DNA of 64,000 bases, from NCBI GenBank assembly GCA_015179025.1, contig WHUX01000096.1:62001-126000 (forward strand), given 5' to 3'. The stretch comes from Terfezia claveryi. Lineage: Eukaryota > Ascomycota > Pezizomycetes > Pezizales > Pezizaceae. The position numbers and the translations under genes are program-made. Numbering within the stretch: the first letter of the stretch is position 1; each line of letters opens with the position of its first letter. Below, piece by piece: positions 2,683-56,570 of this stretch. Under the pieces are notes generated by a model. That model saw only the letters and a program-made list of their open reading frames with translations, searched no databases and had not been told where the DNA came from.

Positions 2683-3132
2683 TTATTTGCGTGGCTGGCG
2701 GATAGTGACGTGAGTGGGAGGCATCGGAGCCCTAGCCCAAGATTTCTGTGGGACCGAGGAAGTGTTGGTGACTGGGGGAGATGGATTGCCCATGATGCCG
2801 GCGGTGTTGGGAGTTTTTGGACCCGCTTTGGAGGTCTTTTGAACCCATGGATTATGGGATTTTGTGGCTTGTGGGGGAGTCTTCTGCGCGTTGAGGCCGA
2901 TGCTTGATACGCATGCGGTGACTGGCGTGGGTTTGTGTTCTACCGCTCGTACTGGCTTCCATTCGTTCTCATCGTCCTCCACATCTGAACTCTCTGCTTT
3001 ATCCTGGTCCTCCTCATCTGAATCCTGGAATGGGCAGTCTTCCACATGCCCAGCGGAGATATCTCGTCCCCGACAACGGTTGTAGTCACATTGGACGTGA
3101 GTGAAGAATTTGCATCCTCTTGGCTTAGACAT
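2683..3132 (-). CDS. Small acidic protein with N-terminal HCCHC metal-binding-like motif, copy A
   Basis: 149-aa ORF starting MSKPRGC. An upstream in-frame ATG at 3240 would add 36 residues, but MSKPRG is the start shared with the other two copies and follows the conserved leader. Residues 12-33 hold H12-x2-C15-x4-C20-x8-H29-x3-C33, compatible with a small zinc-binding fold. An acidic stretch (about 35-60, rich in D, E, S) follows, then a low-complexity P/T/N/K linker, and a C-terminal block SWARAPMPPTHVTIR shared by all copies. No signal peptide or membrane segment. I do not recognise the family. The same motif and spacing open the extra ORF of the gypsy element at 55362-56570. Function unknown; a nucleic-acid or protein adaptor role is only a guess. 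Confidence 0.75.
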   Translation of the reverse strand: MSKPRGCKFFTHVQCDYNRCRGRDISAGHVEDCPFQDSDEEDQDKAESSDVEDDENEWKPVRAVEHKPTPVTACVSSIGLNAQKTPPQATKSHNPWVQKTSKAGPKTPNTAGIMGNPSPPVTNTSSVPQKSWARAPMPPTHVTIRQPRK

Positions 3133-3287
3133 TTTGATAAAGAGTAAAAAGCCTAGGGGCAAAGATGTTCGAAGGTAAGATTGGTAATGGACTAAGGTAG
3201 AAACCTGTTGGATCTTTCGTAGAGTACTTGATGATGTCAATGTCTCTGGAGGACTGAGTCTGATGTGAGGAAGGGGTAGAACAGTCC

Positions 3288-3295
3288 CTTATATA
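3288..3295 (-). promoter_or_regulatory. TATA box of copy A gene
   Basis: TATATAAG on the minus strand about 156 bp upstream of the MSKPRG start, at the same relative place as in copies B and C, and embedded in a conserved context (ATATAAGGGACTG-like). Confidence 0.6.
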
Positions 3296-3888
3296 CAGAT
3301 TTTTGTGTCAATTGTATGCAAATGCGTTCAGTATACCAATTACCTATTGAGTTCACACTGACTGAATACAAAACCTTTCTGCTATTTGGGAGAAACCTTT
3401 TGAAATAAACCTGGAAAGGTTAACTTAACATCATTGCAGTAGAGCCTAACCCATTAGTCACAATACTTTACCCAATATTGTTCATCAATGAACATTAGGT
3501 TTTGGGATTGGAATGGATTATCATGGAGATTCACACATTTTTTTGTGGTAACTCAGTACTCGTATACAAACTATTTTCCTTGTGACGACGGCCGAGTGGG
3601 TACCCGGCTGGGTTGTCCAACCCGTCCCGTGATTCACACCATTCCACGTGTTGCTCTCGAGTTACCCGGCAATGAAGTGAACGACCAATAGAATTTGCGG
3701 AGTCACAATGGAGGTCGGAATGTAGTCACAGACTGCATTTACTTTCCAACGCAGTCTTAGGCCTTATTATTCTAATCCCCGTACTTCCAGATTCATTACA
3801 ATTAGACATTTTATGATGGGCCAGAAAAAAAGTTTTAGCGGTCATAGGTAGTATTACCATGAGTTCGTAGACCACGTCCTTCTCATGC

Positions 3889-11377: not shown

Positions 11378-12500
11378 GGCTGATCAAGAACCTCTTGACA
11401 AGGAACTTCAAGATTCAGACATGGCAGACCCAGTACCTATATATCAAGACAGACCTTCTCTTAGATGTCAACTTGGCGATCATTCACAAGGAAGACCAAT
11501 GCAAGATCGAGAGCCTACCCCATTCCTTCCGAACTGTGAATAACCCGAGAATATCACTATCAGAGTCTCCGTGAACAGGAAAATCCCCAAACTGACAGCT
11601 AAGAATTACAAGACATGGTCTCGTGATATGGAATTTATTTTGAAAAGACTCCTGGTATGGTCACTAATAGAGGAAACGATACCCCCCATTCAACTCCGTG
11701 ATGAAGAATGGGAAGAGAAGAACCTATTAGCCTGTGCAGAAATCTACCTGCAATGTACACCTGAAGAACAATGACATTTAAGGGGTCTAAATATCGCTAA
11801 ACACCAATGGGAAGCCCTAAAGAATGCCCACAATACAAAAAGTTTCGTTGAAATCGAGCAGATGCTGGAAGATTTCAATAAACTAGTAAAATTGACTTCA
11901 GAAACCTGTCAAGAGTGGGTCCAAAGAGTCAAAGACGCTGCCGGAGACCTAGAAGAGACGGGAAAACATCTCGACTCAGAAGACATAGCGTATAAGTTAT
12001 TAAGCGGGCTACTGGAAGAATATAGGCTATTGAGAACTACCTTAATGGCCATGAGAACGGACACCAACCCACTAGATATAACTCGAGTGTCTAATTCAAT
12101 TCTGACAGAGGAGAGACATGTTAAACCTTCGGCACAAAACTCAACAGGCATACATCATGCTCACGTTTTAGCCATAGAAGACAAAGAAGACAGGGTACTT
12201 CGACCAATACACCAAGCAGGTCCTCAACGGAATAATGGAGGAAGGAAGCCTGCATACAGAAGAACTCCTTACACAAGACCTAGCTGCTCATTCTGCAAAA
12301 AAGTGGGACATCTAGAACAAAACTGCTATCTACAATATCCTGAAAAACACCCCTCTCACCCTAAATACAGAGATCCAAACGAGGAACCGTCCACTCATAC
12401 CGCAGCAGTAATGACCACGACCCAAGGGGAAAACAAAAATAGCCAACTCAGACTAGAGTATCAATACAACATGTCAGCACCCAACATAGGATCAGGTTAA
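11378..12500 (+). pseudogene. Copia gag
   Basis: Starts MADQEPLDKELQ at 11378, then shifts frame. KLTAKNYKTWSRDMEFIL is the N-terminal signature of copia gag (UBN2-type), followed by the helical body (residues such as EWEEKNLLACAEIYLQ, FNKLVKLTSETCQEWV) and LSGLLEEYRLLRTTL. A zinc knuckle CSFCKKVGHLEQNC (CX2CX4HX4C, about 12286-12327) packages RNA in active elements. A frameshift near 11545 and an in-frame TGA at 11772 break the frame, and a TAA at 12498 separates it from protease. Confidence 0.9.
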
Positions 12501-13838
12501 AACGATTGGATGTTGGACTCAGGATACTCAATACACTTTACCAAATGGAAGACATGCTATACGGACTTCACTATCCCTAAGAAACCCATTGAGGTAGGAA
12601 CAGGAGGAGGTTCATTAATAGCTTACGTATCCGGGTCCATTTACCTCAATATCGAAATAGGTGAGACTCAACTAAAAGACGTAATGTATACTCCCGAAAT
12701 GTCAACAAACTGCAATATGCTTTCTATTACAAGGATGGACCATGAGGGATATTCAACCAACTTCTCACATGGACGAGCATATATAACTAGAAGACATGAT
12801 AATACATTATGGGCAACAGGAACTCTCTGAGAATGCAGTTTATATTTCCTGGATCAATATCCCACAGTTTGCGCTTTCTCTATGGTGGCAAGCATACAAG
12901 ATACACAGGTACTCGAAACATGGCATAAACGACTAGGTCATCTCAGCGAAAGAAGCATTAAAGACCTACAAAAATTATCAACCGGAATCATTATTGGATC
13001 ACCACACACATACACCTTAAATGCAGATTGTATAGACTGTGTATATACCACTCAACATCATTCCCTATCTCATATACCCACCACTCGATCCACAACAAAA
13101 CTGGAACTAATACATTCAGATATCTGTAGACCAATGAAAGTACCTAGTTTCGATAAAGAATTATATTTCGCACTTTTTATCGATGACTACACACGCATGA
13201 TATGGATATACAGTTTAGAGACAAAAGACCAGATATTCGAGGCGTTCGAGCATTTTGTTGCTCATGCAGAATGCTAATATGGAGAAAAGGTTAAAAAGCT
13301 ACGAACAGATAATGGAGGTGAGTATATCAGTGTCCGTTTTAAAAACTGGGCTACTACAAAAGGCATGGTATTGCAAACTACACAGCCCTATAGTCCGGAT
13401 ATGAATGGAGTTGCAGAAAGAGCAAACAGAACAATTGTGGAAGATGCCTCAGCACTGTTATGGGGGGCAAAACTAGGTATTCAATTCTGGTATGAGGCGG
13501 CCAAAACCTCAGTATATCTAAAGAATCGGAAACCATATAAAGGACGTCAAAAGACACCCTATGAAGCATGGACGGGTCGACAACCCTCACTAGCATATCT
13601 CAGAATATTCGGATGTCGATGTTATGCCCTAATACCAGATAAACGTCAAACCAAATGGGAAGCACACTCAAATGAATACCTATTTATGGGATATTTTGAT
13701 ACTGACAACCTCTTTCGCCTTTATGATCTGGTCCAATAAAAATTCATAAAGAAAAGAGATGTGATATTTCATGAGAACATAACAGGACATCATGGTTTTG
13801 CAGCAAACCACTTACCAGTTGGGACGAACATATAAGGA
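12501..13838 (+). pseudogene. Copia protease and integrase
   Basis: The protease active site reads MLDSGYSIHF; the family pattern is LDSGASxH, so the Ala is replaced by Tyr. Integrase follows: the HHCC region contains WHKRLGHLSERSI and CIDC; the catalytic core has HSDICRPM (first Asp in the HxD block), FIDDYTRMIW, RTDNGGEY (second Asp) and NGVAERANRTI (Glu). The C-terminal region is KTPYEAWTGRQPSLAYLRIFGCRCY. Catalytic residues D, D and E are kept, but TAA or other stops at about 12830, 13275 and 13737 interrupt the frame. Confidence 0.9.
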
Positions 13839-13844
13839 CACCCC

Positions 13845-15247
13845 ATGGAAATAGACCAAGGTGATTTTGAATCAGCCTTCGTCAATGGTTTCCTAAATGA
13901 GGAAATATATATGGAACCTCCACAAGGATATTCCGCTGGCCCCGATAATGTTCTACTAGTTAGAAGATCACTATATGGCCTCAAACAGTCTGCTCGAGTC
14001 TGGTATCAAGCTCTAGATGAATTACTAAGAAAACTAGGATTCAAACGGATCAGAGCAGATTATGGGGTTTGGTATGATGGAAAAACAATTATACTAGTAC
14101 ATGTGGACGACATGATAATCATCGGGATACGTTGCGAGATAGAAAAAATCAAGGAGGCAATCCACGACATGTACACATTCAAGGACTTAGGACCCATCAT
14201 CGATAGTATATTCCTAGGTATACACATACTCAGAAATCGAGAAGAAGGGTTAATTCATATTGACCAAGATCGATATGCAAAGTCCATATTGGACAAATAT
14301 GATATACAATAAGAATCATCCACCCCTATGGAGACAAAAATCGATTTCACCGAAAACAACAAAAAATTTGATGTGAAAACGTATCAATCAGTAGTTGGAA
14401 GTCTCCTATACTTGACACTAGAAACAAGACCAGATATCGCCTACTCTGTCAACAAGCTATCACAATTCTGTAGCAATCCCTGCGAATCTCACTGGATTGC
14501 AGTAAAAAGAATCATGCAATATATATACGCAACGGTGAACTACAGAATAATATTATCCAAATCAACAGACAAATTAATAGAATATTTCGATGCATCACAT
14601 GCTGATAATTAAGAGGATCGCCATTCCACATGTGGATATATATTCTTGTTTAAGGGTGGCCCTATATCCTAGAGATCAAAGAAACAATCGATGGTGGCGT
14701 TATCGTTAACTGAAGCTGAATATATAGCTGCAACTGAAGCTGCAAAAGAATCTCAATGGATAGTGGCACTAATAAGGGGAATTGGAAGAGAAACAGATAA
14801 ACCCACAATCCTATTCGGCGATAACATAGGAGCAAATTTCTTAACAGAAAACTCTGCATATCACTCGAGAACAAAACATATACATATTCGTCAAAGATAT
14901 GTGACAGAATTATTCGAGGCAGGACTAATCAAAGTCAACCACTGCAGAATAAAAACATGATAGTAGACATATTCACAAAGCCGTTACCCAAAGATCAATT
15001 CATTCGACTTAGAGGTTTAATGGAATTAAAACTACCATTAATCAACACCTCAAAGAAAAGACGAGGTGGATCATCATTAGGACCATTTGAATGCACAAGA
15101 TGCAAAGAAACGTTCGCTACAAGAAACAAATTATTTCTGCACCTACAAATACAGGTCATTTCAATTCTACTAATGAAGAAAACAACTCTGCAAAGTCCTG
15201 CGAGACAAGTTCTCCTACAATGCCGTAGTTCTCCTACGATGCCGTAG
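13845..15247 (+). pseudogene. Copia reverse transcriptase (N-terminally deleted), RNase H and C2H2-like tail
   Basis: Resumes in the middle of reverse transcriptase at MEIDQGDFESAFVNGFLNEE (family: MDVKTAFLNGDLEEE), so about 150-200 residues of hinge and fingers are missing after integrase. SLYGLKQSARVWY and the active site VHVDDM (family YVDDM) follow. RNase H contains TRPDIAYSVNKLSQF and SLTEAEYIAATEAAKES. The end has FTKPLPKDQFIRLRGLM, then ECTRCKETFATRNKLFLHL, which resembles a C2H2 finger missing its second His. Stops at about 14312, 14612, 14670 and 14960. Non-functional. Confidence 0.9.
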
Positions 15248-21400: not shown

Positions 21401-21829
21401 TATCAATATTCGTATCCCTACTATCTTACATATGACGTGAGACGCATCCCTGGGGGGAAGCCCAGCTGAATTGTCCAACCTCCCAGCCGTCTACCTATGG
21501 TAACTCATTAATTATCAAATGATTTCTCTCACCTCCTTCCTTCCTTCCGGGACTCTATTTAACTTTAGAATCTATATCTCTCTCTGCACTGTCCTCATCC
21601 TCCCAGATATCCTCCCATTGTTTTCCCTTGCTCCGTACACTATACTCCTCATGTCCCCTTACTGGGACCGAATAGGAGTGAAGAAAAAAAAAAGAGAAGT
21701 ACCAAGCATAGGCTTTGAATCTTACCCCAGCAACCATCTATCTAGCCATACAGTTGGGCCCTTGTATATTGCCTCTCTCGTCGCATCTCCTAAACGTGTT
21801 CAACAGCGGCCCGGAAAAATAAAAATATC
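21401..21829. other. LINE-tail fragment in otherwise featureless DNA
   Basis: GTCCCCTTACTGGGACCGA followed by ATAGGAGTGA and a poly-A at about 21655-21693 is a truncated family-2 LINE tail. The rest shows nothing. Confidence 0.5.
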
Positions 21830-21923
21830 GGCTCAGCTGGGAATCGAACCCAGATCACCCGCCCTCTGCCTGAAATTAGCAGGTACCTACATAGCAGATG
21901 TCATACCATTAGACCACTGTGCC
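21830..21923 (-). repeat. tRNA-like element, copy 1
   Basis: 94 nt on the minus strand: GGCACAG acceptor strand, A-box-like TGGTCTAATGG, a TCTGC/GCAGA stem around a 24-nt loop, a perfect B-box core GGTTCGATTCC inside a CTGGG/CCCAG T arm, and a CTGAGCC acceptor return (one mismatch to GGCACAG). This is a tRNA-derived sequence with both internal Pol III boxes. No 7-nt anticodon loop with U33 is evident, and the region between stem halves is 24 nt, so an isotype cannot be assigned. It lies inside a larger repeat (flanks such as ttgtattgccttgctg and agtaccaagcatagactta recur). Confidence 0.75.
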
Positions 21924-22012
21924 TTTTTATGATAGCCGCCTAATCAGTTGAGACTTGTATTGCCTTGCTGTAGGTACCAAGCATAGACTTATGAACCGCC
22001 AGATAGTCAGTT

Positions 22013-22150
22013 TTATAGAGATAAGCGAGCGGAGAGGTCCAAGTGTCCATGAATATGAAGAAGAAGAAGTTCAAATATGCAGTGAGGTGCATGTATTTTT
22101 ATTGAAGTGAAGTGGTTGTAGTGATTCAACTTAGTTATCTCGAACAAGTA
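22013..22150 (-). repeat. Dispersed module shared with 9530-9690
   Basis: Same word order as 9530-9690 on the opposite strand. See that entry. Confidence 0.55.
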
Positions 22151-22431
22151 GGAATATGACGAGATATATATACATGTATGAACGTAGAGCTGAAGGAAGT
22201 TGTGAAGCACGCCATATGAGTGCAAGCCAATGTAAGTAGTATGAATGAACGACGAAATGGACAGTATTCTAACAAGTTTTGCATGATATAATAACTCTCG
22301 GACACTAGGTAGGCTACTCTCTTCTCTCAGTGTCATAAATGTGTACTTTGATACCAATCGAGTACTTTGATACTAGGTAGTAGGTATGTGCTTGTGCTTC
22401 AATTACAAAAATCTAAAAAGAAAAATATAAT

Positions 22432-22525
22432 GGCTCAGCTGGGAATTGAACCCAGATCACCCACCCTCTGCCTGGAATTAGCAGGTACCTACACAGCAGG
22501 TGTCATACCATTAGACCACTGTGCC
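22432..22525 (-). repeat. tRNA-like element, copy 2
   Basis: 94 nt, same architecture as copy 1. The B box has an A for G (GGTTCAATTCC). Confidence 0.75.
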
Positions 22526-23035
22526 TTGTTACTGAAACCTGCCTAATCGCTTGGGTCTTGTATTGTCTTGCTGGAAGTACCTGTGCCAACCAGACGCCTT
22601 GTACATTCATAGATAAGTATATATGCGCTTACTAAGTTTTATGATATAATAATTGAAAGGTTGATTATATATATAATCATTTTTTTTTTTCGTATTCTCA
22701 TGAATATGATAATAATCGAAAAAAAAACAATAGGAAAACAGCGAACCAGCTCTCTATCATTTGTCCTACCTGTGGAGCAAGCCAGACTACCTGTGGAGTC
22801 CTGTGGAGGGTGTTGTGCAACCAGACTAAGTACCTTGTACAATAACTCTCGTACCACCTGTGCCAACCAGACTAGTACCACCTGGGCCTTGAGGACTCTC
22901 TACGAGAGGCTAGTGCTAGCTAGATTAAGTACTTGAGGACTGCTGTCTCCCTCTCTGTCGGCGGGTCGTGCAGCTAGACTACTTTGATACTAGATAGGTA
23001 CTTGTGGTTCAATGACTAAAAGGAAAAAATATAAC
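22526..23035. other. Repeat-rich spacer between tRNA-like copies
   Basis: Contains recurring phrases also seen near 22.3, 32.9 and 40.9 kb (ataactctcg, gtgccaaccagactag, tactttgatac). No gene. Confidence 0.5.
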
Positions 23036-23129
23036 GGCTCAGCTGGGAATTGAACCCAGATCACCCACCCTCCGCCTGAAATTGGCAGGTACCTACATAG
23101 CGGGCGTCTTACCATTAGACCACTGTGCC
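23036..23129 (-). repeat. tRNA-like element, copy 3
   Basis: 94 nt, same architecture, with small substitutions in the loop. Confidence 0.75.
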
Positions 23130-23130
23130 T

Positions 23131-24752
23131 TTTTATGATAGTTGGCTAATCGCTTGGGTCATGTATTGGCAACGGCAGGATGGAGCCATAGTCCCCAGTG
23201 AATTGGTCTTCAGTTATGTCGATGATGTCAACGCTCTGGAGATTACCAACCTACCGGCGAGAACGCATAATGCACTGGTGAGGCTTGTCGACGAGCCCCT
23301 AGAAGCAGCGGCATCCAAGGGCGACCTCAAATGGGATCCTGGCCAAGAAATCAGACTAGACTTCCACAAGGGGCCGATCGGGGGATGTACTGCTCTTGGC
23401 ATACACATTTAGTCTAATCTGTCCTGGGATGAACATATCAAGATCCGGACGAAGATGGTGTCAAGGCTCTTCCGGGTATTGACCAGATTAGGTAACTCAA
23501 ATGGAGGCATGAACCGAAAAGCCCTCAGAGCACTACCTATATACGGGGCCTATCCGACCAATACTCACCTGCGGGGCCGGGGTGTACAATGAGACAGGCG
23601 TCTGTCCGAAGCTGGAACCCATGCGGAGATAGGAATACCAGGATTACGGGGGCCTACCATTGAGCAGCCACGAAAAGCTGGGTTGGATTGCTAACGTGGA
23701 ACCAATGTACAAGACAAGATTAGATGACCTATCTAGGGCATGGGCAGCCCATTGCCTCCGCACTGGGGACACACAAGACAAAGCCTTCATGCGCAGCTAC
23801 ACGGCACCTCGTAAGACATCATAGCACGACGGCTCTAGTCCACATACCCAAAGAGACAGCCCCATCTCAGAAGCATTTTGCCTAACCGCAGCAGAAGTTA
23901 CAACCTCACGAGCTCCCATATGGGAATAGGGAGGATACGAGAACATTCCCGATCACACATCGACCCGCAGGTCCGTGAAATCGAAACACTTCGGATATTG
24001 GGCAGTGGAGATTAGATCGATCCTGGATGATAGAGAGTTTGCTATATCGACGGCACGGGGAGGGAGGGATGGTCGCGAGAGCAACCCATAGCACGGACCG
24101 AAAGAGCAACCTAGAGACCACCTACGGGAGCTACCGGGGGGATGGCGAACTACATGCAATGCGCCTAGAAGATCCGAGCATGATCACGATTACGGTAGGC
24201 CTGGGCACGAGCCGGCACGAGCCGAGCCTGGGGTAGGCTCGTTCCCAGGCCTAATCACGATCCTCACGGATTCACAAACAGCAATACAGGCGGTCTTTCT
24301 CCAATATGAGTCGTGGGGCACCTCCGAGATCGGGCATCGAGCCGGACATCGAAAATGCCCTAGTCCAGTCTGCCGACATCAGGGACGTCAGGATCGCATG
24401 ACATAGGTATTGAAGGGAATGAGAAGGCGGACCAGCGGGCATCGCTTGAGTCGCATCTAGGACAAATCAAAGTCACCTCGCGCACCGCCACGGAGGGAGG
24501 TCTACGAGCTGCCTCTGAAGCCATTCGGAAAGAGAAGGTGCGTATGGGGACGACAGCCTCTTTCGGCTTACACTTGGATGCGAACGGACCGAGGGCCCCA
24601 GAGATGCTGGCTGCACCAGATTGGCAATGCAGAGACCACAGCGTGCGATTATGGACAACCGTTAGAAAGTTCACACCACACCATTATGAGTGCCCGTGGT
24701 TCGCACGAGAGCCAGACCCCTGAGGTACAAGAGCACCTTTGAGGACTTAGAC
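23131..24752 (+). pseudogene. LINE ORF2 relic: reverse transcriptase, RNase H, knuckle
   Basis: The plus strand reads LVFSYVDDVNALEI, with the LINE reverse-transcriptase active site YVDD, followed by the thumb (GPIGGCTALGIHI and, after a stop, SNLSWDEHIKIRTKMVSRLF). Later come DSPISEAF and, near 24260-24310, ILTDSQTAIQAVF, the RNase H second-Asp block. ASLESHLGQIKVTSRTATE and frameshifted remains of a C-terminal Cys/His knuckle (about 24580-24720) follow. The remaining coding end EDLDKAEWRK is split by a nested insertion at 24766 and resumes at 25355. Many stops, so inactive; the upstream endonuclease and most of the reverse transcriptase are absent. Confidence 0.85.
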
Positions 24753-24765
24753 AAAGCGGAGTGGA

Positions 24766-25341
24766 TTTTTTTTTTTTAAATACTTGTTACTCTTATTCGG
24801 TCCCAGTAAGGGGACCATGAAGAGCCACTCGGAAACCCGAGTGGATTCAGGACAAGGCAAGTTAATCTGCCAGGTCCGGCGCGCAGAAAGCAGAAGATAG
24901 ATACATAGGTCCGGCGCGCAGAAAGCAGAGATGGGATAAATGTGTAAAAAAGAAATCAAAGGACAGAGGGCCTCCATACTGTCATTAACCACCAATGGCG
25001 GATGACCCCGAGAGGACTGACTGAGACCCCTGCCGGAAAATACCAACAAGAAGAAGAAATGACTTGAAGTGTGAGAAAAACGTGTAAGAGAACTCGTGAG
25101 TGCTACCAGCCATCTAAGGCCAGCCCATCCTAGCGTGGATGGATATTTATTAGCTACGTGTTCCCATGTCTTCTTCCAGCCATCCGCCGATACAGAAGGC
25201 TAAAGAAAGCTTCTACCGCATCCCAATTATCCTCCTCTTCTTCCTCGATCCAAATGGGGTGGTCGAGGTCTTCCCAATCTTTAATGCCGCCTAAAGCTTG
25301 TCTGTGGTCGTGAAAGAGGGGGCAGTCAAAGGCTAGGTGAA
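24766..25341 (-). mobile_element. Truncated LINE nested inside another LINE
   Basis: A 576-bp minus-strand insert flanked by AAAGCGGAGTGGA at 24753-24765 and 25342-25354 (13-bp target duplication). It begins with a LINE C-terminal segment (minus-strand frame HLAFDCPLFHDHRQALGGIK, then WEDLDHPIW and DAVEAFFSLLYRRMAG), continues with the conserved 3' UTR, and ends with the GGTCCC/GGGACC hairpin and a T run (poly-A). It interrupts the end of the host LINE at 23131-24752. Confidence 0.9.
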
Positions 25342-25424
25342 AAAGCGGAGTGGAGGAAGTAGGCCACGGAGGCCTTTTTTTGGTTATTTATATCACGAGT
25401 TCAGCTGACTTTTACTTTCATCTT

Positions 25425-25551
25425 TCACGAGTTCCCTGTCTCACGAGTTACCTGTCTCACGAGTTCCCTGTCTCACGAGTTCCCTGTCTCACGAGTTCCC
25501 TGTCTCATGAGTTCCCTGTCTCATGAGTTCCCTGTCTCACGAGTTCCCTAT
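25425..25551 (+). repeat. 16-bp tandem repeat, eight copies
   Basis: Unit tcacgagttccctgtc; copies start every 16 bp from 25425. A few have T for C in tcatgag, or A for C in gttacc. Confidence 0.95.
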
Positions 25552-25786
25552 GTTTACGGTTTTCATGAGTTTCAGGATAAATGGAATTTCCTTAACCTGT
25601 CAACTTACTTTGCTGTATATAGGCGCGGACCTGACAGATTAACCTGCACTAATATAGTCATGACTATATCGTAGATGAAAGGAGTGGGACCCGTCAACCA
25701 ACCAACCCTCAGCGATGGAGACACAATTAGGGAATAAAACTAATATAATTTAGCTAGTATGGCCGAATAATCTATTACTTTTTGCA
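25552..25786. other. No gene recognised
   Basis: No supported feature. Confidence 0.4.
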
Positions 25787-25859
25787 TAAGAGGTATAGGA
25801 CTTTAACCTATGGGCTTTCGTGTGTAAAACGAGCGCTCTTCCATCTGAGCTAACCTTTT
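25787..25859 (-). tRNA. tRNA-Val(TAC)-like gene, probably of mitochondrial origin
   Basis: 73 nt folding as a cloverleaf on the minus strand: acceptor AAAAGGT/ACCTCTT (one mismatch), D stem GCTC/GAGC, anticodon arm with loop TTTACAC giving anticodon TAC (Val), T stem ATAGG/CCTAT, discriminator A. The T loop is TTAAAGT, lacking the invariant C of a nuclear B box. Flanks are very AT-rich, unlike the surrounding DNA. The best reading is a piece of mitochondrial DNA moved to the nucleus. A decayed nuclear gene is the alternative. Confidence 0.7.
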
Positions 25860-25924
25860 ACCCTTTTTTAATTAATTTATTATATGCTTTTATAATTTTT
25901 TAATTTATCAATTGTCCTGAGCCC

Positions 25925-26000
25925 ACCCGGCCTTCCGTGTGGCTCCTTACTGAGACCGATTAGGAGTAATGAGTATATATATAAAAAAATAAAAATAAAA
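25925..26000 (+). repeat. LINE 3' tail fragment, family 2
   Basis: CCACCCGGCCTTCCGTGTGG, then CTCCTTACTGAGACCGATTA and GGAGTAATGAGTAT plus an A-rich end. The hairpin stem is partly lost. Confidence 0.65.
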
Positions 26001-26209
26001 TGTATCCATGGGAATTGAGGGTAAGACAAATGCGCTGGAATATGTTATTTGGCCAATCAGAAGCAATGGAATACAAGGATTTGCGGGTGGCTATCCTGCA
26101 ACAGGTATTGCCTTGTTGGAGTACCAAGCATAGACTTATGAATCTTCAGGTGCATAGAGTAGAGGTGTTTGGTTCAATGCAAAAAAATCTGAAAAAGAAA
26201 AATGATAAT

Positions 26210-26303
26210 GGCTCAGCTGGGAATTGAACCCAGATCACCCGCCCTCTGCTTGAAGTTAGCAGGTACCTACATAGCAGGCGTCATACCATTAGACCACTGT
26301 GCC
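26210..26303 (-). repeat. tRNA-like element, copy 4
   Basis: 94 nt, same architecture as copy 1. Confidence 0.75.
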
Positions 26304-26364
26304 TTTTTATGATAGATGCCTAATCGCTTGAGTCATATATTGCCTTGACAGAAGTACCAAGCCT

Positions 26365-27655
26365 AGGTTTTCAATCAAACAGGTCAAACGCGGCACATGG
26401 CTACGCAACTTGGCACGATGGCTTCAACCCATACCTTCAAGGTGACAGCCCCATTTCGGAGGCCTTCTACATGATGCGGCGGAACCACATGAAGTCTCGT
26501 GCGGGGATAGGTCTGACACGAGAACTTTCCACATCATTCACGAAATGATAATCGAACTAACTTCCGAGAGGTCGAGATACCTAGGATACTTGCTGGGCAA
26601 TACAGGTAGGGATAGGATCAATCCTAGACGAAGGATGGAGAGTATGATACACTGACAGCACTGGGATACAGCATATAGCACAGACAGAAAAGGTGGACTG
26701 GAGGCTATCTAAAGTGGCTGTCTATGGGATACAGCCACGATGGCGGACGGCGAACTCCTGGCAATTCACCTGACTCACACTGCGGAAGACTCGGACATGA
26801 CCATGATCCTCTCATATTCTCAGCCGGCAATGCAGATAATATTCAACATGAGCAAAGGATCGCCCCTAAGATCGGCCATTCAAGACGGTCTTAATCTAAA
26901 AGAGATGTTAATATCGCCTGGGTCAGAGGGCACGCCGATATAGAAGGAATCGAGGGAGCGGATCGGATGACATCTTACGAGTCATTCCTAGGACAAATTA
27001 AAGCACGGGAGCGTACAGTAACGGAGGGAGGCCTAGGCAGAGGCAGCCCCCAAGGCCATCCGAAAAGAGGCAAGAGGGGAAAAAGTGTTCGGGGTTAGGA
27101 AAACGAACGGCTCAGACATGCACTGTCAACATATACATGGATGCGGACAGACCGTGGTCCACAGGAAAGCTGACACATCACATCTGCAAAGCGAACGACA
27201 GAACATGTGCATGCGGGCATCCGATGGAGAATGCGCAGCACTTTACTTTCGACTGTCCACGGTTCAAACGAGAAAGAGCCCTATTCTTAGGAAACAAGAG
27301 AACAAGGGCAGAACTAGACAAACCAGAGTAGGGAAGGGAGGGAAAGGAAGTTTTAGAGACCACACAGGCATTTTTCACTTGTCTTTACAGTGAGCTCCTT
27401 CTCTCCTCTTTTCGAGATCTGGGGTCGGGCCTTAGTCAGGCCCTTTTGGGGGTCATCTGCGCATGATACGGCTAATGACAGCATGGGGGCCCCACCTCAC
27501 TCAGCATATTCTATAGCTCTTTCATTTTATACAGCACCGGATGCGGCAGATTGGCGTGCCTTGTCCTGAATCCACCTGGATTTTTGAGTCGCTCATCATG
27601 GTCCCCCTACTGGGACAGCATATGAGTAATGAGTATTTTTTAAAAAAAGAAAAAA
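26365..27655 (+). pseudogene. LINE ORF2 C-terminal relic with 3' UTR and tail
   Basis: Begins within DSPISEAFYMMRRNH (same block as at 23860). RNase H remains read MILSYSQPAMQIIFNMSKGS, where the catalytic D of SDSQ is Y. The Cys/His knuckle is complete at about 27187-27265: CKANDRTCACGHPMENAQHF and TFDCPRFKRER. The 3' UTR has GCTAATGACAGCATGGGG and GCCTTGTCCTGAATCCACC, then TGGTCCCCCTACTGGGACA and GTAATGAGTATTT plus A. It links the coding family to the family-2 hairpin tail. Confidence 0.85.
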
Positions 27656-28231
27656 GACTAGTGGAAAACGTGATTTAATAACTTGATAATTATTCTGTAC
27701 AGCTTTTCCCACCCCAACCAAGCAGCAAGCAATCGAGTTCAGCCACAAATTAGGCGAAAGCACCACCTTAGACTACAGCAGAGTTAAAAGTCTTACCCAA
27801 ATAAGAGTGGGTGTGACGCCACGCAGTGCAATTACAGGATTGTGGGCACACGGAGGAATATTTAGGTGGGGAATATATGAAATTCCAGAGCGGCTATAGA
27901 GAGCAGCTAGATATGGCATGAAAACGGGGTCTCGATATGAAAAATATATTTACAAAAATAATAGAAAAAATCAAACCAAAAACGATATCAATAGCTGCAA
28001 GATGTCCTATGGCCTCGGTTCCCTATAGTGCCCCAAGATGTTCCTCCTAGCCTGAGTATTTGCACGAAAGGGAGTGAGGGAAACATCTAGGGAACCGATT
28101 GACGTTATGGTATGTCACATCTCACCCCCCTTATATCTCTCCTCCATACCCACTGGTGCGAATGTTTAGCCCCCGGGGGTTCGGTCGGGCTCTGTGCACG
28201 ATGGCTGGGTTTGATGCCCTGTCAGGCATAG

Positions 28232-28720: not shown

Positions 28721-28875
28721 TTTGTTAAAGGACTAAATCTAGGGACAAAGATGTACGAAGGAAGGATTATTGGTGGTGTAATGTAGAAGACTTTGCAGAA
28801 CACTTGATGTTGTCAATGTTTTCTGGGGGACTCAATCTGATGTGAGGAAGGGGTAGAACGGTGCTGACCTGTCCC

Positions 28876-28883
28876 CTTATATA
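28876..28883 (-). promoter_or_regulatory. TATA box of copy B gene
   Basis: TATATAAG on the minus strand, 156 bp upstream of the ATG, as in copies A and C. Confidence 0.6.
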
Positions 28884-30840: not shown

Positions 30841-31103
30841 TTAGACGTGGCTAAGTGCTGACAGAGGCTCTCAAAAGCACTCGTTCCACATATTCGGGAA
30901 ATCGAACGCAGAAGCATGCCGTGCTGCCATCACACATAAGACGGTCGACACCTTCGGTTTCGTATATAGATGGCTCGTCGGGAGAGGAGGCTATTGAGGT
31001 ACTTATACATTCTCCCCGGTCAACAGCCCTTGAGTCCAGTTTCATGTTTACTTATGTTATATCAGTTTGGTTTGTTAGGTGCGGCTTCAGGCAGGCCTCT
31101 CGG

Positions 31104-31200
31104 AGTTATTTTTTTTTTATTTTTTTTTTTTTAAATACTCCTTACTCCTATTTAGTCCCAGTGAGGGGACCATGAAGAGCCACCCGGAAGTCCGGCTGGA
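31104..31200 (-). mobile_element. Truncated LINE tail with 11-bp target duplication
   Basis: AGGCCTCTCGG occurs at 31093-31103 and 31201-31211. The minus-strand insert carries GGCTCTTCATGGTCCCCTCA and CTGGGACTAAATAGGAGTAA, then a long T/A-rich tail. It sits in the 3' UTR of another LINE. Confidence 0.8.
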
Positions 31201-31211
31201 AGGCCTCTCGG

Positions 31212-32290
31212 GGTCCGGTTAAAGAAGACCTCTAGGGGTCCGGTTAGTGACAGCATGGGGACTCAGCGACACTTGAGTTCATCCCTTTTCCAGTTTATAT
31301 CGTTATATGTTCTTCTATACAGACGGAGGAAGGTGGGGTAGGGGGAGGTTTGTTTCGATAGAATTCGCAGGCAGAATAGAAGGGTGAAGAGGACTGGGGG
31401 GATGGCTATGGTATGGTATGGGGAGGTGGTGGGAATCAGAGGAGCTCTAGAAAGAGCGCGGAGAGAGGAAAGTGTCCTGGTGTTGACTGACTCACGTGCA
31501 AGGATTCTGGCAATTGGGGCGGCGGGCAAGTTAGGAGAAGCCAGGACAGAAGATCTTAATTGGATTGTCGAGGAGGTGGCGAACAGAGAAGGAAGGTTAG
31601 GGAGGGGCAGTCCGATTTGGCTGGGTCAAGGCGCACATTGGCATATATGGTTTTAAATGCTTGTTCCTCTTATGCGGTCCCAGTAGGGGGACCATAAGGA
31701 AGAGCATGGCATGGCAGAGGAATAGTCACGAAGGGTGGGGGGGGGGGGGTAGGTACGCCTGGAACAGGAAGAGGCAGGCAAGCCGAAAGGTGATTGGAAC
31801 TGGGATGGGGAGGGTATTGGAAGTGGAATGGGAAGGCGCGGGTCGACTATGTGCATTGAAGAACTGGGAGGGGAAAACTACAAGTGTGGAGAGCTATCTT
31901 AGATCCCACGGTATTCACAATCTATAGGTTCTTCGAGGTGGACCCGGAAACGGGCAGGCATGTCGCTTTGTCATGTCCTGCCGGCAGATGGATTGGAAGA
32001 AGGTGGAGTTCTTGGGAACAAGCGGACGAAAAGGACAGATGGTTGCGGAAAAGAAAAGATGGTTGCGGAAAATGAAGGACAGGGACAAGGAAATATTCGA
32101 GCACTTGGTTGAGAATTTCTTTTCTAGAGTTAAGGTGTCGGGGGGTGGGAGCTGGCAGCGGAGGAAGGTGAAGCAGTTTTTTTGGTGCGGGTTTCTTTTG
32201 TCTTTGGGAGGCTGGACCTGCTTCTGGTACCGAGAGCATAAGCTGAACCTTTTAAGGGCAGTCTTCGGGACTCCGGCATGACCTTAGGTA
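31212..32290 (+). pseudogene. LINE relic: RNase H and Cys-rich C-terminus
   Basis: GVRGALERA-like VGIRGALERARREESVLVL and TDSRARILAIG represent RNase H. GQGAHWHIWF is cut by a minus-strand LINE tail at about 31652-31695. The end contains DPETGRHVALSCPAG and GRRWSSWEQADEKDRWLRK, the same knuckle region as at 10.5 kb. KDRDKEIFEHLVENFF follows. Broken in several frames. Confidence 0.75.
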
Positions 32291-32394
32291 TGAGACAATA
32301 AAAATAAAATAAAATAATAAAAACGTTAACCATATGTTATATCTGCTGCAGCATTTTGGCTCTCGAGTTTTTTTATATTGCGGTATATAGGCGC

Positions 32395-32510
32395 CGGACC
32401 TGGAACATTAACTTGCTTCGTCCTGAATCCACCCGGGTTTCCGGTTGCTCCTCGTGGTCGGTCCCCTTACCAGGGGGACCGAATAGGAGTAATAATTATT
32501 AACAACAAAA
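32395..32510 (+). repeat. LINE 3' UTR and tail fragment, family 2
   Basis: CCTGAATCCACCCGGGTTTC, GGTCCCCTTACCAGGGGGACC (hairpin with one extra G) and GAATAGGAGTAATAATT, ending A-rich. Confidence 0.75.
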
Positions 32511-32649
32511 AAAAGAGGAGAATTGACAGAGAGGTATGAAGCATAGGCTTTGAACCTTGCCCAGGGAGCATTTAGCGACACAGTTTAGTCCCTTGTATAT
32601 TGCCTCTACCATCGCATCGCATCTCCTAAACCAAAAGAAAAAAAATAAT

Positions 32650-32744
32650 GGCCCAGCTGGGAATTGAACCCAGATCACCCACCCTCTGCCTGAAATTAGC
32701 AGGTAACCTACACAGCAGGTGTCATACCATTAAACTACTGTGCC
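32650..32744 (-). repeat. tRNA-like element, copy 6
   Basis: 95 nt; one extra base in the loop and ggcccag in place of ggctcag at the acceptor. Confidence 0.7.
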
Positions 32745-32980
32745 TTTTTATGATAGCTGCCTAATAACTTGAGTCTTGTATTGCCTTTTTGAAAGTACCA
32801 AGTATAGACTTATAAACGCCACCTAGTCAGTTGTACATAAAAGCGCCTTGTATAATAATAACTCTCGGACCAAACTGGTTCTCTCGGATTGCTTCCCTCT
32901 CAGGTTTTATAAATGTGTACTTTGATGCTCTGGGTACTTGTAGTTCAATGAATGAAATCTAAAAAAGGTAAAATGATAAT

Positions 32981-33074
32981 GGCTCAGCTGGGAATTGAAC
33001 CCAGGTCACCCGCCCTCTGCATGAAATCAGCAGGTACCTACATAGCAGGTGTCATACCATTAGACCACTGTGCC
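32981..33074 (-). repeat. tRNA-like element, copy 7
   Basis: 94 nt, same architecture. Copies 6 and 7 lie 237 bp apart in tandem, with shared flanking phrases. Confidence 0.75.
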
Positions 33075-37156: not shown

Positions 37157-39549
37157 TCACTCCTCAAATAAGGAAGTAATGTAATCATCATCGGAATTCT
37201 CCCCAACCACCTCTCCTGGACCCTCTGAACGGGGTAACATTCCGCGCTGGTGTTCCGCCTCCAGGGCATGTGGTTGCCCCTCCTCAGTTGACCCCCAAAT
37301 CGACGAGTTACCCCCAGCATCCTTATCCATCTCCAGCTCAGCTGTGCAATCAACCGGCGGCAACTTCTGAATCTCCAGACCAATTTGTTCCCAAATATCG
37401 AACTCCTCATTATAGTCATCCTCCTTGTCGCCGGAAGACTCGTCTGCCTGTTGACGAGTTGCAGAGGGGTTGAGGGCGGTCATATCGCGAGATTTTGCCG
37501 GAGTACGTTTTGCAACTCCCTTTTTGTTTGAAGTCGTGGGCGACGGACGAACGGGTTTCTTTGGGGGAGTAATATGAGTTCCCGCGGCTGCTGCATTCTT
37601 TCGCTGATATCTTTCCCGGTCCCTTTGCCTCCTCCGAGCCTTCTTTTCCTCTTCTGTTAGCTTGACTCCTTGCCCTTTCCTGGGTAGTGAGATCGGTGCT
37701 CCTTGTGATGTGGGTACAGCTGCCGCTGGTGAGGTTTTCTCATGAACGGAACGCACATGAGTCACCTCCTCCTCGACAACCAACTCACCACTCCCATGCC
37801 ATGACACTTCATCATGTTCATCCTCATATGGGTCTGTCTCCCCGCTTTGGTCATCTTCAGCCTCGGCGGCAGCGTTTTTGCCCTGCGGGTGTGCTGAGGC
37901 AGGTAGAACCCTCCCCCCCCGCTCATCAACCTCGAAAACGGCATCCGGGTCGTCACCCACCTTCTCCACTCCCTGCTTTATAGGCCTTTCTAGTCTCGGA
38001 AACTCATCGGGGTTTGTAATCCACCGCTTTCGGCTCATGGCAATTTTGCGGGGCATGTTGTGAGCCAAGTGCTCATTTGCCCTGCTAATATCGTAGGGAG
38101 CGACGGTGAAATTAGTGTAAGTCGTTGTCCGCCCAGACTTACCTCTAGTCTTGGGGAAAACCTGGTTACTCGAGACGGGGGGAGATTTTGTGGTTGAAGT
38201 TCGTAGATTGTTGGCCGGGGGAGAAGCCGAGGGTGAAGGTGTGAGGATACCGGCCCCGGTTGTCACTTCACCACCACTCGTTCGAGTAATGGGGGAAGAT
38301 GAAGGGGTGAGGAGATTGACTTTGGTTATGGTCAATGGGGAAGATGAAGGTGTGAGGGGATTGGCCTTGGTTGTGGTCAATGGGGAAGGTGAAGGGGTGA
38401 GGAGATTGACCTTGGTTATGATCAATTCGTCGTCGCAGGCGGAGGCTGGAGTAGCCCTCTTTCGCTCTTTTCGCTTCTCAGTTCTAGCCCGTTTGCGTTG
38501 CGGGGCCACTGCCGTAGCAATCTCCAAAGACTCAGAGTGGATTTTCCTTTTACAAGATTGCACGATGCCCGGGCTATGTTGATGTACCTCCCCGTTCAAG
38601 AGCACCCGTTCCTTTTCGTGAGGGCTCGCTAGACTCCAGTCATTTTTGGACGCGGGAACCGCTTCCTCAGTTGCAACTGGTGGGGATGGGGATGGGGATG
38701 GGGCGGGAGTCTGTATCTTCTCTCCTTGGCTTTGCGAAAGTCTGGAAAGGGGGGGCGTCGAGGGTCTGGAGTGGGTGAGCATGGGATCTAGGTGGATATC
38801 TTGAGCCTGCCTGGGACCCGCTCTACGACTTTGTTCGGAGAACACAGCTGGGTTATTTTGGCGTTGACCGCTTTGTAATTGCCAGTTGAATCCATTGGAA
38901 TTCGCAAGACCCATTATTTGCGGATTGTACATGGTATTTGGTATATTGAATTGGCTCCGGGATGCCAAATTCATCGTGATACGCATTGGGTCAGGAGCAG
39001 GATACCCATGCATGCCCTGAGCTAGCCCTAATGGAATTTGGTCAGTTTGTCCAAGCTTAATATTCGCATGAAGATCCGTGATTACGCCTAGTAGCATACC
39101 TTGTTGCAGACTCAACTGCTGTTGGTGTCGTTGCTGCTCGAATGCAAGGTGCTCAAATTGTAGTTGTGGGGTAACTACCATCGTTGGGTCCGCCATATGC
39201 CGATAGGTGTGCGCCATTGGTGCATTCATACTGGCTAGGGATGAGGATAGGCATGCATACCAAGTGCTGGACCAGCAATGGGTGGAGCTGAGACAGTTGG
39301 AGTGCAGGGTCCCATAACATGACGCATGGTATTCATTTGAGCTTGCGTCATTCCTTGAGGCGGTGCATGTACATTACCGCGGAGCTGTGTGTAAAAATGA
39401 TATCCTCCATCGCTCGCTGGTTGAAGCGCATATGCATGCTGGTTTCGTGTAAAATGAGCCGGCCTAGAATAGTAAGCTGCGTTAAATGCCGTGTCCGCTG
39501 GCATGTTGATATGGTAGAGGCCCTGCGTAGGTCGAGATTGGCCTGACAT
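37157..39549 (-). CDS. Large low-complexity, probably nuclear protein (two exons)
   Basis: Exon 1 is 39549-39261 and exon 2 is 39174-37157, separated by an 86-nt intron (GTATGC...CCAAC...GTAG) that joins codon G|TT and fuses two long frames into 768 aa. Without the intron, exon 2 could begin at ATG 39229 (690 aa). The N-terminus is Q/M/H-rich (QQRHQQQLSLQQ). There are three tandem 15-residue repeats (TKVNLLTPSPSPLTT-like, DNA 38300-38430), a basic cluster RKRARTEKRKERKR (likely nuclear localisation signal) and EEEKKARRRQRDRERYQRKN, a basic helix without an obvious leucine zipper. The C-terminus is acidic (SDDDYITSLFEE). No enzyme motif. A minus-strand TATATAAAT near 39690-39700 may be the promoter. 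It is intact in a region of broken elements, so it is probably a host gene. A chromatin or transcription role is plausible but unproven. Confidence 0.75.
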
Positions 39550-47154: not shown

Positions 47155-47156
47155 TA

Positions 47157-53022: not shown

Positions 53023-53027
53023 TCAAT

Positions 53028-53706
53028 TGTAATGAATGGTACTAGACAGTATTCATTCGGTACCGTTTATACAATCTATATCCGTAGGCACGGACGTTTG
53101 TGTATTTCGGTTCTGCTGAGGTGAGACCTCAAAAGGGTAGGGAGATTACTATGTGGGATGTTCCCGAAGGGAACAGTAATTAACTGGTGTAATCTATCTT
53201 ATATGATTTGTGCTATCTAAGCTATATGATCTTGATCTGATCGGAATATAGGCTTGCTTGCTCTGAAGGCTTGCTTGGTTGCTTCTTGTCTTTCTGTGGA
53301 TTCCAGAGGGAATCCAGCGGCCTATTTATACTCCTCTGAGATCTGATGACTAAGGAAATAAATACAATAAAGGGTGGCACACCAGAAGGTGGTGCGCTGT
53401 ACAAAAGGGGTCATGTGGCCATAGTAATGAGTTACACGCCATAAACGATAGTCATGTGGCCATAGTAATGAGTCACACGCCTTAAACAGAGGTCACGCGG
53501 CCATAATGAGGGTGTCTTCATATGGCAAGTGCCATGGAACTTCCCATGGCAGATTCCGCGTGCTATGGATGCTTATAAAGCAATAGGAGGTGGTAGAAGG
53601 CTAGTCCTTCAACCGAGAGCTTAGTTACATAAACATAGTAGTAATATAGGAAATACAAAAGTATATAATCAATTATATAAGCAATGAGATAATGTTCTCC
53701 ATTACA
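53028..53706 (-). repeat. gypsy 3' LTR
   Basis: 679 bp. TCAAT target duplication lies directly to its left. Confidence 0.95.
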
Positions 53707-53716
53707 CTTCCCCACA
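53707..53716 (-). other. gypsy polypurine tract
   Basis: Minus-strand TGTGGGGAAG directly abuts the 3' LTR. It is the expected plus-strand DNA primer. Confidence 0.7.
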
Positions 53717-53962
53717 TAGAAGGATTTCCTATCCTTACTTCCTTCGCTCTGCCATATTGGTTTCCATACGTCCTAAGATTTGATGCATTGTTAATACATT
53801 AGCATTAACGTGAATATCCTTAGTGTTTCCTTGACTCATGATTCTATCTCATTCTTGTTGGATGAGAGCTCGGGTCTCATCTCTGGTTTGTGGTCCTTGT
53901 TTTCCTTTAGTCCTTCGACGTCTCTTGAATGTGTCTTCCATACTTCCGGTCATCCAGAAGTC

Positions 53963-55396
53963 TTAAAGAATTTCGGTGGTGATATCCTTGGCGTTTACCC
54001 AGGAATCATATTTAGGAGTGTATCCTAGCCATCTGACCTTATATTGTCTTTCTCCAGTTCGAGGAGCTGTTCTGAATTCTAATACCTTTTCAACTTCATA
54101 ACGATCATCTTGAATTGGTCCTGGTTCCTGAGATTGTCTGTGAGGGAACTGGATGGGATCGTTTTTATAGTATGGTTTGAGTTTGCTAATATGAAAAGTA
54201 TTATATATGAGGTGGAGGTCAGGTTGACTGGATAGGTCTAGGCTATAGTTATTGCGTTTCCGATTACTAGAAATAATGGGAAAAGGGCCTAGCCATTTTG
54301 GTTTGAGTTTGGGTGAGACGTTCAATAGGTTGACGTTTTCTGAGGAAAGCATAACTTGTTGTCCGACTGAAAATTTGGCTGTATTGGGTAGTCGTTTGTT
54401 CGCTTGAGATGCTTGAGTCTTCTTGGCGTCATATAGGTTTTTAGACGTTACCTCATGACGTTCATTTGCTGGTACATATGCATTAATGGAGTATGGAAGT
54501 ATCGATATGCCAAGATGTGCATTAAATCCAAATAGTGTGGAAAAGGGACTATTCTGTCTAGCAGCATTATATCTAGAGTTAAGTTTCAACTGTATCTCTG
54601 GTAGTTTCTTAAGCCAATCAAATCCTTCGATTTTACAAGCTCTTGCTACTTGTAGAATTTCTTTGTTCACAATTTCCGATTGTCCGTCTGCACGTGGATG
54701 ATATGCGGTGGACGGTTCCAACTTGATTCCTTTATTCCTAGCCCAATCTTGAAAGTGCGTTGACATAAAAAGAGTGTCGCGGTCAAAAACAATACAGAAA
54801 GGGTATCCCATAGTTGGGACTACATGAGTATCAAAGGTAGCAGTACATTGTTCTGCTGTGAAATTATCTGAGACAGGAATAAGAAACTTGAATCCTGATT
54901 GTCTATCGACAATCGTCCAAAGTCGTGAAATACAAACTACATGATCTTCTTCAACAGGAATATTCGGGTACAAAATTGAACACTTAGTAAACACAGGTGC
55001 TACTTTAAGAAAATCCATCGATATGTCAGTCCATGGCCTGCTTGGTACATGTAATGGGGTTACGAGTCCAAGTGGCGCCTTATTGGAATACTTTGTCCGT
55101 TGACAAGTATCACAACTTCTGATATAGTCCTTAGTTGGTTCTGCAAAGGACTGGCAATCATATCGGTTAGTAAGATATTTCATCGTTTTTTCAATGCCAC
55201 CATGAGCGGTTGCTTCATGTGCATCTTTAATAACCAATTCGAGATAGTTCTTACCTTCGATGTTAAAGGTAGAGGGCAAGACAAGTCTCCATTGTCCTTG
55301 TCGGTTCTTGACATACAAAAATCCATCTTTTATTCTATGATCCTTACGGTTCACAAAGGTATCATAGTAGTTCTTCCAGATAGGACATACTCTCAT
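53963..55396 (-). CDS. gypsy integrase with C-terminal chromodomain
   Basis: 477-aa uninterrupted ORF. The zinc domain is H60-x4-H65-x29-C95-x2-C98 (CDTCQ). The catalytic core has its first Asp in DISMDFL, the second in IVFDRDTLF and Glu in RADGQSEIVN. Then come the GPF-like KPKWLGPFPI and a chromodomain YEVEKVLEFR...YKVRWLGYTPKYDSW, which in chromoviruses directs insertion toward methylated-histone chromatin. Length is about normal for integrase alone. It has no frameshift, in contrast with gag and reverse transcriptase. The frame is open a little upstream (KPYQSC), so the true product is presumably released from a polyprotein. The start shown is the first Met. Confidence 0.92.
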   Translation of the reverse strand: MRVCPIWKNYYDTFVNRKDHRIKDGFLYVKNRQGQWRLVLPSTFNIEGKNYLELVIKDAHEATAHGGIEKTMKYLTNRYDCQSFAEPTKDYIRSCDTCQRTKYSNKAPLGLVTPLHVPSRPWTDISMDFLKVAPVFTKCSILYPNIPVEEDHVVCISRLWTIVDRQSGFKFLIPVSDNFTAEQCTATFDTHVVPTMGYPFCIVFDRDTLFMSTHFQDWARNKGIKLEPSTAYHPRADGQSEIVNKEILQVARACKIEGFDWLKKLPEIQLKLNSRYNAARQNSPFSTLFGFNAHLGISILPYSINAYVPANERHEVTSKNLYDAKKTQASQANKRLPNTAKFSVGQQVMLSSENVNLLNVSPKLKPKWLGPFPIISSNRKRNNYSLDLSSQPDLHLIYNTFHISKLKPYYKNDPIQFPHRQSQEPGPIQDDRYEVEKVLEFRTAPRTGERQYKVRWLGYTPKYDSWVNAKDITTEIL

Positions 55397-56570
55397 GCAT
55401 GATTGATACGGCTTTCATACCTGTTCCTTGGTCAAGCCAGTGTGTGATGAAGTAGTCCTTGTTGTCTTCCCATCTGTCGCTGATGTGCTTCTCTTCAATG
55501 AGCTTGTTGAGGGTCGGTTCGATCCTTGTGTTGAAGTCATTGATGGTAGGTTTCTTCTCCTTGCAAGTAGAAGCATTATGTCCTGAAAACTTACAGAAAT
55601 CACAACGCTGTCTGGAGGTCTTGGTATCTTGAATGAAAGAGGGTAAATCTTCGTCAATGGCTACTCGCTTTTTAGAACGAATGGTGACGGCGGCGGTGTT
55701 GATTGGAATTGCGTTGCTGCTGCTAGCGGTTGCAGCTGGTTGTTGAGGTGCATTCTATGGTTGTTGTGGGGCAACAGGAGTATTCATGATCTCCTGTTCC
55801 ATTTGTCGGTTGGTCATCTGTTCGGTAGGGTTACTGAACTGAATGCTGGGTTGGAGAGTGGGTTGTGTCGGCTTGTTGGCGATCCATCTTTTTGCCCATT
55901 CTCCGATTTCCTGGATAGCTTCTTCTCGGCTGAGAGCTGGTGGAGGTGGATAAGCTGGCGTTTGTTGTACTGGTGCTAGTTCCTTTTGAGGCTCATTTGC
56001 GGCTAGGATATGCGCAATACGAGTCATAAGGAATTCCTTCTCCTTCTTAAGAACTGAGGCTGTCAGGTCACAGTTCAAACTGCCATGTCCGTGGTGGTTG
56101 CAGATTGCACATGTTTCGACGGTGAACATGCGGTTGTTCATGGCGTGGGAGCTGCCATGAACTGGACAGTAAAAATCACGGCAAAAGGACCAGTGCATCC
56201 TTTTGTGTTGTTGCCAATTGCTATGAGCCAGGTCGATAGCAATTTCTTTCGCTTCTTCAGGAGCGAGGGTATTTTGTTGTGCGTTTTCAGAAGATGGAGG
56301 CCTATATCTTAGTCCAAGAACTGTTAAGGGTTTATTCTTGTTTATATTGGGTACACGATCATACCCACTGAAAACTTCTTCTGGTATAGTAGATAGAGTC
56401 TCATCGTCTGAGGACTCTTCTTCCTTCATCATGTCATATTCGCTTTCTTCATCCTGGATGCCCTCGAAGTATGGACAGAAGATATGGTGTCCAAGTTCTT
56501 CGGCTCTTCCATGACATTTGTTGAAGTCGCAGTTGACATGCTTGAAATTAATAGCTCCGCGAGACACCAA
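55362..56570 (-). pseudogene. Extra gypsy ORF with HCCHC motif and zinc knuckles, one premature stop
   Basis: 403-codon frame (402 residues plus stop) with a single in-frame TAG at codon 272 (a CAG-to-TAG type change in a PQQP-rich segment). It lies between RNase H and integrase, overlapping the former by 23 nt and the latter by 35 nt in a third frame. The N-terminus MVSRGAINFKHVNCDFNKC has H11-x2-C14-x4-C19-x8-H28-x3-C32, the same spacing as the three dispersed genes, and a following acidic stretch. Further possible zinc sites are C130-x4-C135-x2-H138-x3-H142, a CCHC knuckle C154-x2-C157-x4-H162-x4-C167, and a second knuckle CDFCKFSGHNASTC (about 323-336). The C-terminus is helical. Standard gypsy elements have nothing here. 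Role unknown; nucleic-acid binding is likely from the knuckles. Confidence 0.8.

Follow-up and report, generated by a model that had tools for sequence, protein, structure and literature searches.

A short Cys/His domain common to a small-gene family and the Pol polyprotein of a Ty3/gypsy element in Terfezia claveryi

Introduction

Fungal gypsy elements have gained a dUTPase domain in Postia placenta and reportedly also in Phanerochaete and Tuber melanosporum, and independent gains have been proposed in the account given in PMC2864245. In Postia, the dUTPase is described there as lying at the N-terminus of Pol, at its C-terminus or between the protease (PR) and the reverse transcriptase (RT), and a figure of that paper marks an 'add. 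ORF' (additional open reading frame) of unknown function (PMC2864245). Similarly, a Ty3/gypsy family of orchids is described with an ALKBH-like domain (PMC9289625), and in the long terminal repeat (LTR) elements of plants the most frequent additional ORFs are placed between pol and the 3′ LTR in a review (PMC7264820). Here, we analyzed a 64,000-nucleotide stretch of the Terfezia claveryi genome (contig WHUX01000096.1, positions 62,001 to 126,000; hereafter the window), in which a Ty3/gypsy element and three small genes carry the same short Cys/His motif, H-x2-C-x4-C-x8-H-x3-C (the HCCHC domain). The motif starts the small genes and, in the element, lies in an insert of Pol (insert X) between RNase H and integrase.

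Results

The HCCHC domain is common to the small genes and the element

Translation of all four intervals confirmed the initial annotation in that the motif has the same spacing at each site, within a common RG..F.H context. The pattern is matched by just these four among the 851 window ORFs (stop-to-stop, at least 40 aa) and by none of 20,000 shuffles of the gypsy ORF. From residues 1–36 of 18 small-gene sequences, several of which are identical there, we built a profile without the subsequent acidic run and applied it to nine gypsy-type proteins, the 851 window ORFs and the 20,000 shuffles. The window gypsy copy scored 32.8–32.9 bits and all nine gypsy-type proteins scored 21–44 bits, compared with 10.7 bits for the top shuffle and 9.0 bits for the top unrelated window ORF. 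Across 14 aligned domain sequences, taken from the small genes and from copies of the element, M1, G6, F10, C15, N18, C20, G28, H29 and C33 are invariant, and R5 and H12 are nearly so. By these sequence comparisons, the HCCHC domain is homologous between the small genes and the element, which supports the earlier view of one common domain.

The alternative at this level is a chance likeness of short acidic proteins rich in Cys and His. The region in common is short, and acidic runs do mislead, because the nearest Pfam family to the small genes, YL1 (E = 0.0007, 20.2 bits against a cut-off of 29.2 bits; none is above the cut-off), is drawn by the acidic stretch of copy 2 alone. However, the possibility raised at the outset, that the four matches are no better than those of random acidic proteins, was checked by the profile without the acidic run; since residues 1–36 alone separate the window copy from the best of the shuffles by the scores given above, the homology is independent of that run. 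Together with the absence of the pattern from the shuffles, this makes a chance or acidic-run likeness very improbable, and we have rejected it.

Three protein searches of 5.8 billion sequences found 15, 8 and 24 proteins, among them those of the window itself and four members from T. boudieri. Outside Terfezia and apparently metagenomic jgi/ena/lgn proteins, no relative was found among the 5.8 billion proteins up to 1.75 times the query length; long polyproteins of other fungi would be missed, because longer proteins could not appear. Five of the eight apparently metagenomic relatives keep all five ligands, and two (P0018 and P0024) combine the domain with RNase H (PF17917). The Met ahead of the domain is present in all eight, where it is internal in five and the predicted start in three. 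In agreement with the initial annotation, which could assign the motif to no named zinc-finger class, the domain matched no Pfam family above the cut-off, a sequence search of the PDB gave no relative, and neither did scans of viral and of prokaryote contigs (16 pattern matches in each). A weak match of the window gypsy ORF to PF04071, 'zf-like' (E = 0.13, 12.6 bits against a cut-off of 27), is repeated neither in copy L031 of the element nor in three apparently metagenomic relatives nor in any of the 14 domain sequences. Membership in PF04071 was rejected on this score and on the unmatched copies; two PF04071 matches in the genome lie outside the listed X loci.

Insert X is part of Pol

The element is 8,968 bp long and is bounded by LTRs of 682 bp each (53025–53706 and 61311–61992), which have eight differences and are 98.8% identical. 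RT, RNase H, the integrase H2C2 domain, an SH3-like domain and the chromodomain are above their Pfam cut-offs (Chromo PF00385 at the integrase C-terminus: E = 8e-8, 32.5 bits against 25.1), and the integrase core (rve) of this copy falls below its own (28.0 against 32.6 bits). With LTRs, RT, RNase H and integrase in gypsy order and a C-terminal chromodomain, the element is, by its predicted domains, a Ty3/gypsy chromovirus. It is abundant, with at least 153 matches reported when 150 of 495 candidates were scored. The 20 stretches that were fetched comprise 18 copies of the family and two small-gene loci.

The window copy is decayed, with frame shifts and one stop. An in-frame TAG at 55755–55757 divides X into two open pieces, 55758–56570 and 55365–55754. 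X had been described as an extra ORF of the element beginning at the domain; the frame is in fact open upstream to 56606, and in less decayed copies X forms part of Pol, inserted between RNase H and integrase. For example, copy L031 has an unbroken 1333-aa frame that comprises the end of the protease, RT, RNase H, X and integrase. In this frame, the HCCHC motif is at position 474, the HHCC motif of integrase at 912 and Gag-type knuckles in between, at 614 and 783. Copy L022 has a single 1197-aa frame with a gag knuckle, PR, RT, RNase H and X. Because these single frames run through X, X is part of Pol, and a separate extra ORF was rejected. X shares an open frame of more than 450 aa with RNase H in eight of the 19 fetched copies (seven of 18, plus L031), and many other copies have frame shifts or stops within X.

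The RNase H-to-integrase gap is 1529 nt in the window copy, compared with a median of 343 nt (336–622) in 41 other gypsy pairs, so the insert amounts to about 395 residues. An insert of this size is absent from all 41 copies, which are same-strand pairs from the best 150 of 2171 RNase H candidates and the best 150 of 1990 H2C2 candidates. These pairs are top-scoring matches and no random sample, and they are perhaps incomplete, as the contigs in both hit lists were picked by eye; they probably represent few families, because their gaps fall into clusters around 339 and 365 nt.

All five ligands are kept in 19 of 20 element copies, and L030 lacks the last Cys. The Met immediately ahead of the element domain aligns with the small-gene start codon and is kept in 18 of the 20 copies (Leu in the window copy, Ile in L030). 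The CCHC knuckle of Gag has the spacing C-x2-C-x4-H-x4-C, and X holds two motifs of this form. In the piece 55758–56570 (−), a C-x4-C-x2-H motif precedes the first knuckle and may be a second small Cys/His domain; it is intact in three of the eight apparently metagenomic relatives.

Two further observations concern the element. A 254-aa ORF (60247–61011, +) runs antisense to the start of gag and is matched in many copies, often in more than one frame. Across 53962–57751 (−) in copies L013–L031, C-to-T changes amount to 8.6% at CpG, 4.7% at CpA and 1.2–1.4% at CpC and CpT, a CpG/CpA bias like that of repeat-induced point mutation (RIP) or deamination of methylated cytosine.

Table 1. Small genes and parts of the Ty3/gypsy element in the window
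Feature	Position	Strand	Content or basis
Small gene copy 1, 149 aa	2683..3132	−	HCCHC domain (residues 1–36), acidic run, basic Pro/Ser/Thr-rich tail
Small gene copy 2, 162 aa	28232..28720	−	acidic run with three DSDEEDQ units
Small gene copy 3, 154 aa	50162..50626	+	
Ty3/gypsy LTR element with chromodomain	53025..61992	−	LTRs, Pfam domains, frames
Integrase (H2C2), SH3-like domain and chromodomain	53963..55396	−	Pfam; rve core below cut-off
Pol insert X	55362..56570	−	HCCHC domain, acidic stretch, C-x4-C-x2-H, two CX2CX4HX4C knuckles
HCCHC domain of insert X, 36 codons	56463..56570	−	
RNase H (RT_RNaseH)	56548..57027	−	Pfam
Reverse transcriptase (RVT_1)	57098..57751	−	Pfam
Protease region	57798..58631	−	weak Pfam match, E 0.022
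Gag region, frame-shifted in window copy	58792..60258	−	

The small-gene family

The three dispersed genes of the initial annotation do exist in the window, and they are three of at least nine loci in the assembly. Seven of these lie on the contig of the window (C791) and span about 85 kb, and one each lies on contigs C135 and C423, the last with a disturbed reading frame. All five ligands are kept at eight of the nine loci, and the first Cys is lost at C791:144834. In a comparison of the seven C791 copies, the flanking DNA is alike for hundreds of bases on both sides; thus, these copies are segmental duplicates. Over the 21 pairs of the same seven copies, the pooled Nei–Gojobori ratio of nonsynonymous to synonymous substitution (dN/dS) is 0.145 for the domain, compared with 0.50 for the remainder of the gene. 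By this sequence-based estimate, dN/dS is below 1 among the copies, and the small genes behave as host genes under selection.

In a tree of 17 small proteins, which excludes P0010 (almost identical to P0002), the seven C791 copies group at 91/92 and no branch is starred; long rows leave the other groupings unsure. Since the C791 copies group in this way, the tree suggests that they expanded after the split from T. boudieri. The C135, C423 and P0025 members have long branches.

Constraint and base composition of X

Over 20 element copies, the ratio of nonsynonymous to synonymous differences (pN/pS) in the domain is 0.16, uncorrected and anchored on L031, or 0.14 with Jukes–Cantor correction and the window copy as anchor. 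This is close to the value for RNase H (0.17) and lower than those for RT (0.32) and integrase (0.37), and 14 of 109 segments of 36 codons reach a ratio this low, including three that overlap the domain. The third-position GC content (GC3) of L031 is 0.43 in the insert and 0.325 in the rest of the frame, compared with 0.52–0.55 in the small genes of the window. The GC3 of the insert thus leans toward a gene-like origin, as far as base composition can indicate.

Discussion

Origin of the shared domain

Because the same motif starts the small genes and sits inside Pol, the domain probably came to be in both truffle genes and the element through transfer. The explanation we favor, at a probability of about one half for the whole, is that the Pol insert is host-derived and acts as a zinc-binding module. 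An ancestral Pol would have acquired the 5′ part of the coding sequence of a gene of the small Terfezia family, and the insert would now be a zinc-binding module for nucleic acid or a partner protein; the protease would either release X or leave it attached to integrase as an N-terminal extension. The similarity between X and the small genes starts at the small-gene start codon, and this common Met and the base composition weakly favor the direction from host to element. Several results weigh against this explanation. The GC3 of the middle of the insert (0.40) is about that of RNase H (0.41), the rise in GC3 starts in the linker ahead of the domain, and the Fisher test on GC3 treats codons as independent. 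The rest of X is less constrained than the domain (pN/pS 0.24–0.43), and the lack of any stop in 720 domain codons of the element copies lends the explanation weak support, because few stops are expected by chance. In addition, no wider host family was found as an obvious donor, and the AlphaFold2 model of the domain shows no confident fold, with a mean predicted local distance difference test (pLDDT) score of 47.3.

The transfer may also have run the other way, which we regard as a possible but tentative account. The small genes would then derive from the Pol insert by domestication: a Pol fragment from the internal Met onward would have turned into a host gene and then been duplicated and retained, perhaps as a competitor of the element protein. 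The internal ATG is at the right place for this, the element is abundant, and finding neither form outside Terfezia and the apparently metagenomic proteins is as expected for a recent element origin. However, the small-gene matches to the element are mostly confined to residues 5–57 (two reach 68 and 80), so the small-gene tail has no visible counterpart in the element, and the GC3 of the insert leans toward the small genes and not the rest of Pol. It is unlikely that each acquired the domain independently from a third source, either one not yet sequenced or a fast-evolving fungal gene family. The long branches of C135, C423 and P0025 would fit such a source, as would the relatives of both forms among the apparently metagenomic proteins, but the three protein searches revealed the domain in no other type of protein.

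Possible function

With respect to the proposed host-derived insert as a zinc-binding module, we infer metal binding by the HCCHC domain, and zinc binding by X, from the Cys/His motifs, since the structural model is uninformative. Given its two Gag-type knuckles, the most likely binding partner of X is nucleic acid or a protein in the vicinity of integrase. In the small proteins, the HCCHC domain is accompanied by an acidic run and a basic tail. Our boldest reading, which is not the likeliest and which we consider doubtful, is that the small-gene products and the Pol insert interact as a pair: host proteins with the same zinc-binding domain would be competitors that limit the element or are exploited by it, and the seven-copy cluster would be an arms-race locus. 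This would give the small proteins a role against the element.

Other features of the window

Over 11 kb (21829–33074, −), 172-nt repeats contain seven tRNA-like genes that resemble one another, are about 95 nt long and have an odd anticodon loop. Six of the seven pass the Rfam tRNA cut-off, and an Rfam match at 25787 is another tRNA; the array is either a cluster of tRNA genes with introns or a repeat derived from a tRNA. A copia-type element has left remains at 11862–14312 (+), with matches to Retrotran_gag_2, gag_pre-integrs and RVT_2, and a DDE_1 transposase fragment lies just outside the LTR element at 62016–62732 (−). A 690-aa ORF at 37157–39229 (−) has no Pfam match at E 0.01.

Comparison with known systems

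A survey of titles and abstract openings in the open-access literature found neither this Terfezia domain nor a domain between RNase H and integrase in a fungal gypsy element. Neither the domain nor its site is described in the passages of PMC2864245, PMC9289625 and PMC7264820 considered here. The element shares with chromoviruses the PR–RT–RNase H–integrase order, the H2C2 zinc domain of integrase, the chromodomain and the LTRs, and differs in that its RNase H and integrase are roughly 395 residues farther apart. A chromovirus Pol has thus taken up a segment with several Cys/His motifs at this site, and it still reads through in some copies. The integrase HHCC domain (Integrase_H2C2) is a separate domain that lies downstream, and the HCCHC domain does not match it. 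Two motifs of X fit the CCHC knuckle of Gag, whereas the HCCHC domain has its own spacing and falls outside the knuckle pattern. PF04071 is a small cysteine-rich domain, and among the domain and element sequences tested its weak match is limited to the window gypsy ORF. The dUTPase elements, as described in PMC2864245, are also fungal gypsy elements with a further domain in Pol; however, that domain is a known enzyme, whereas here a Cys/His domain with no named family lies between RNase H and integrase. The orchid ALKBH-like elements are likewise a gypsy domain gain, but as described in PMC9289625 their domain is that of a known enzyme and is carried by an additional ORF.

In kind, both the gain of domains by LTR elements and the birth of genes from them are known. 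In Terfezia, one short domain with no named family is present in both forms, in the same genome and in several copies each; because both forms are multi-copy there, the direction of transfer, the function and the interplay of host and element can be tested directly. In summary, the HCCHC domain is real and narrowly found, and it is a variant of a known theme, the exchange of domains between LTR elements and their hosts.

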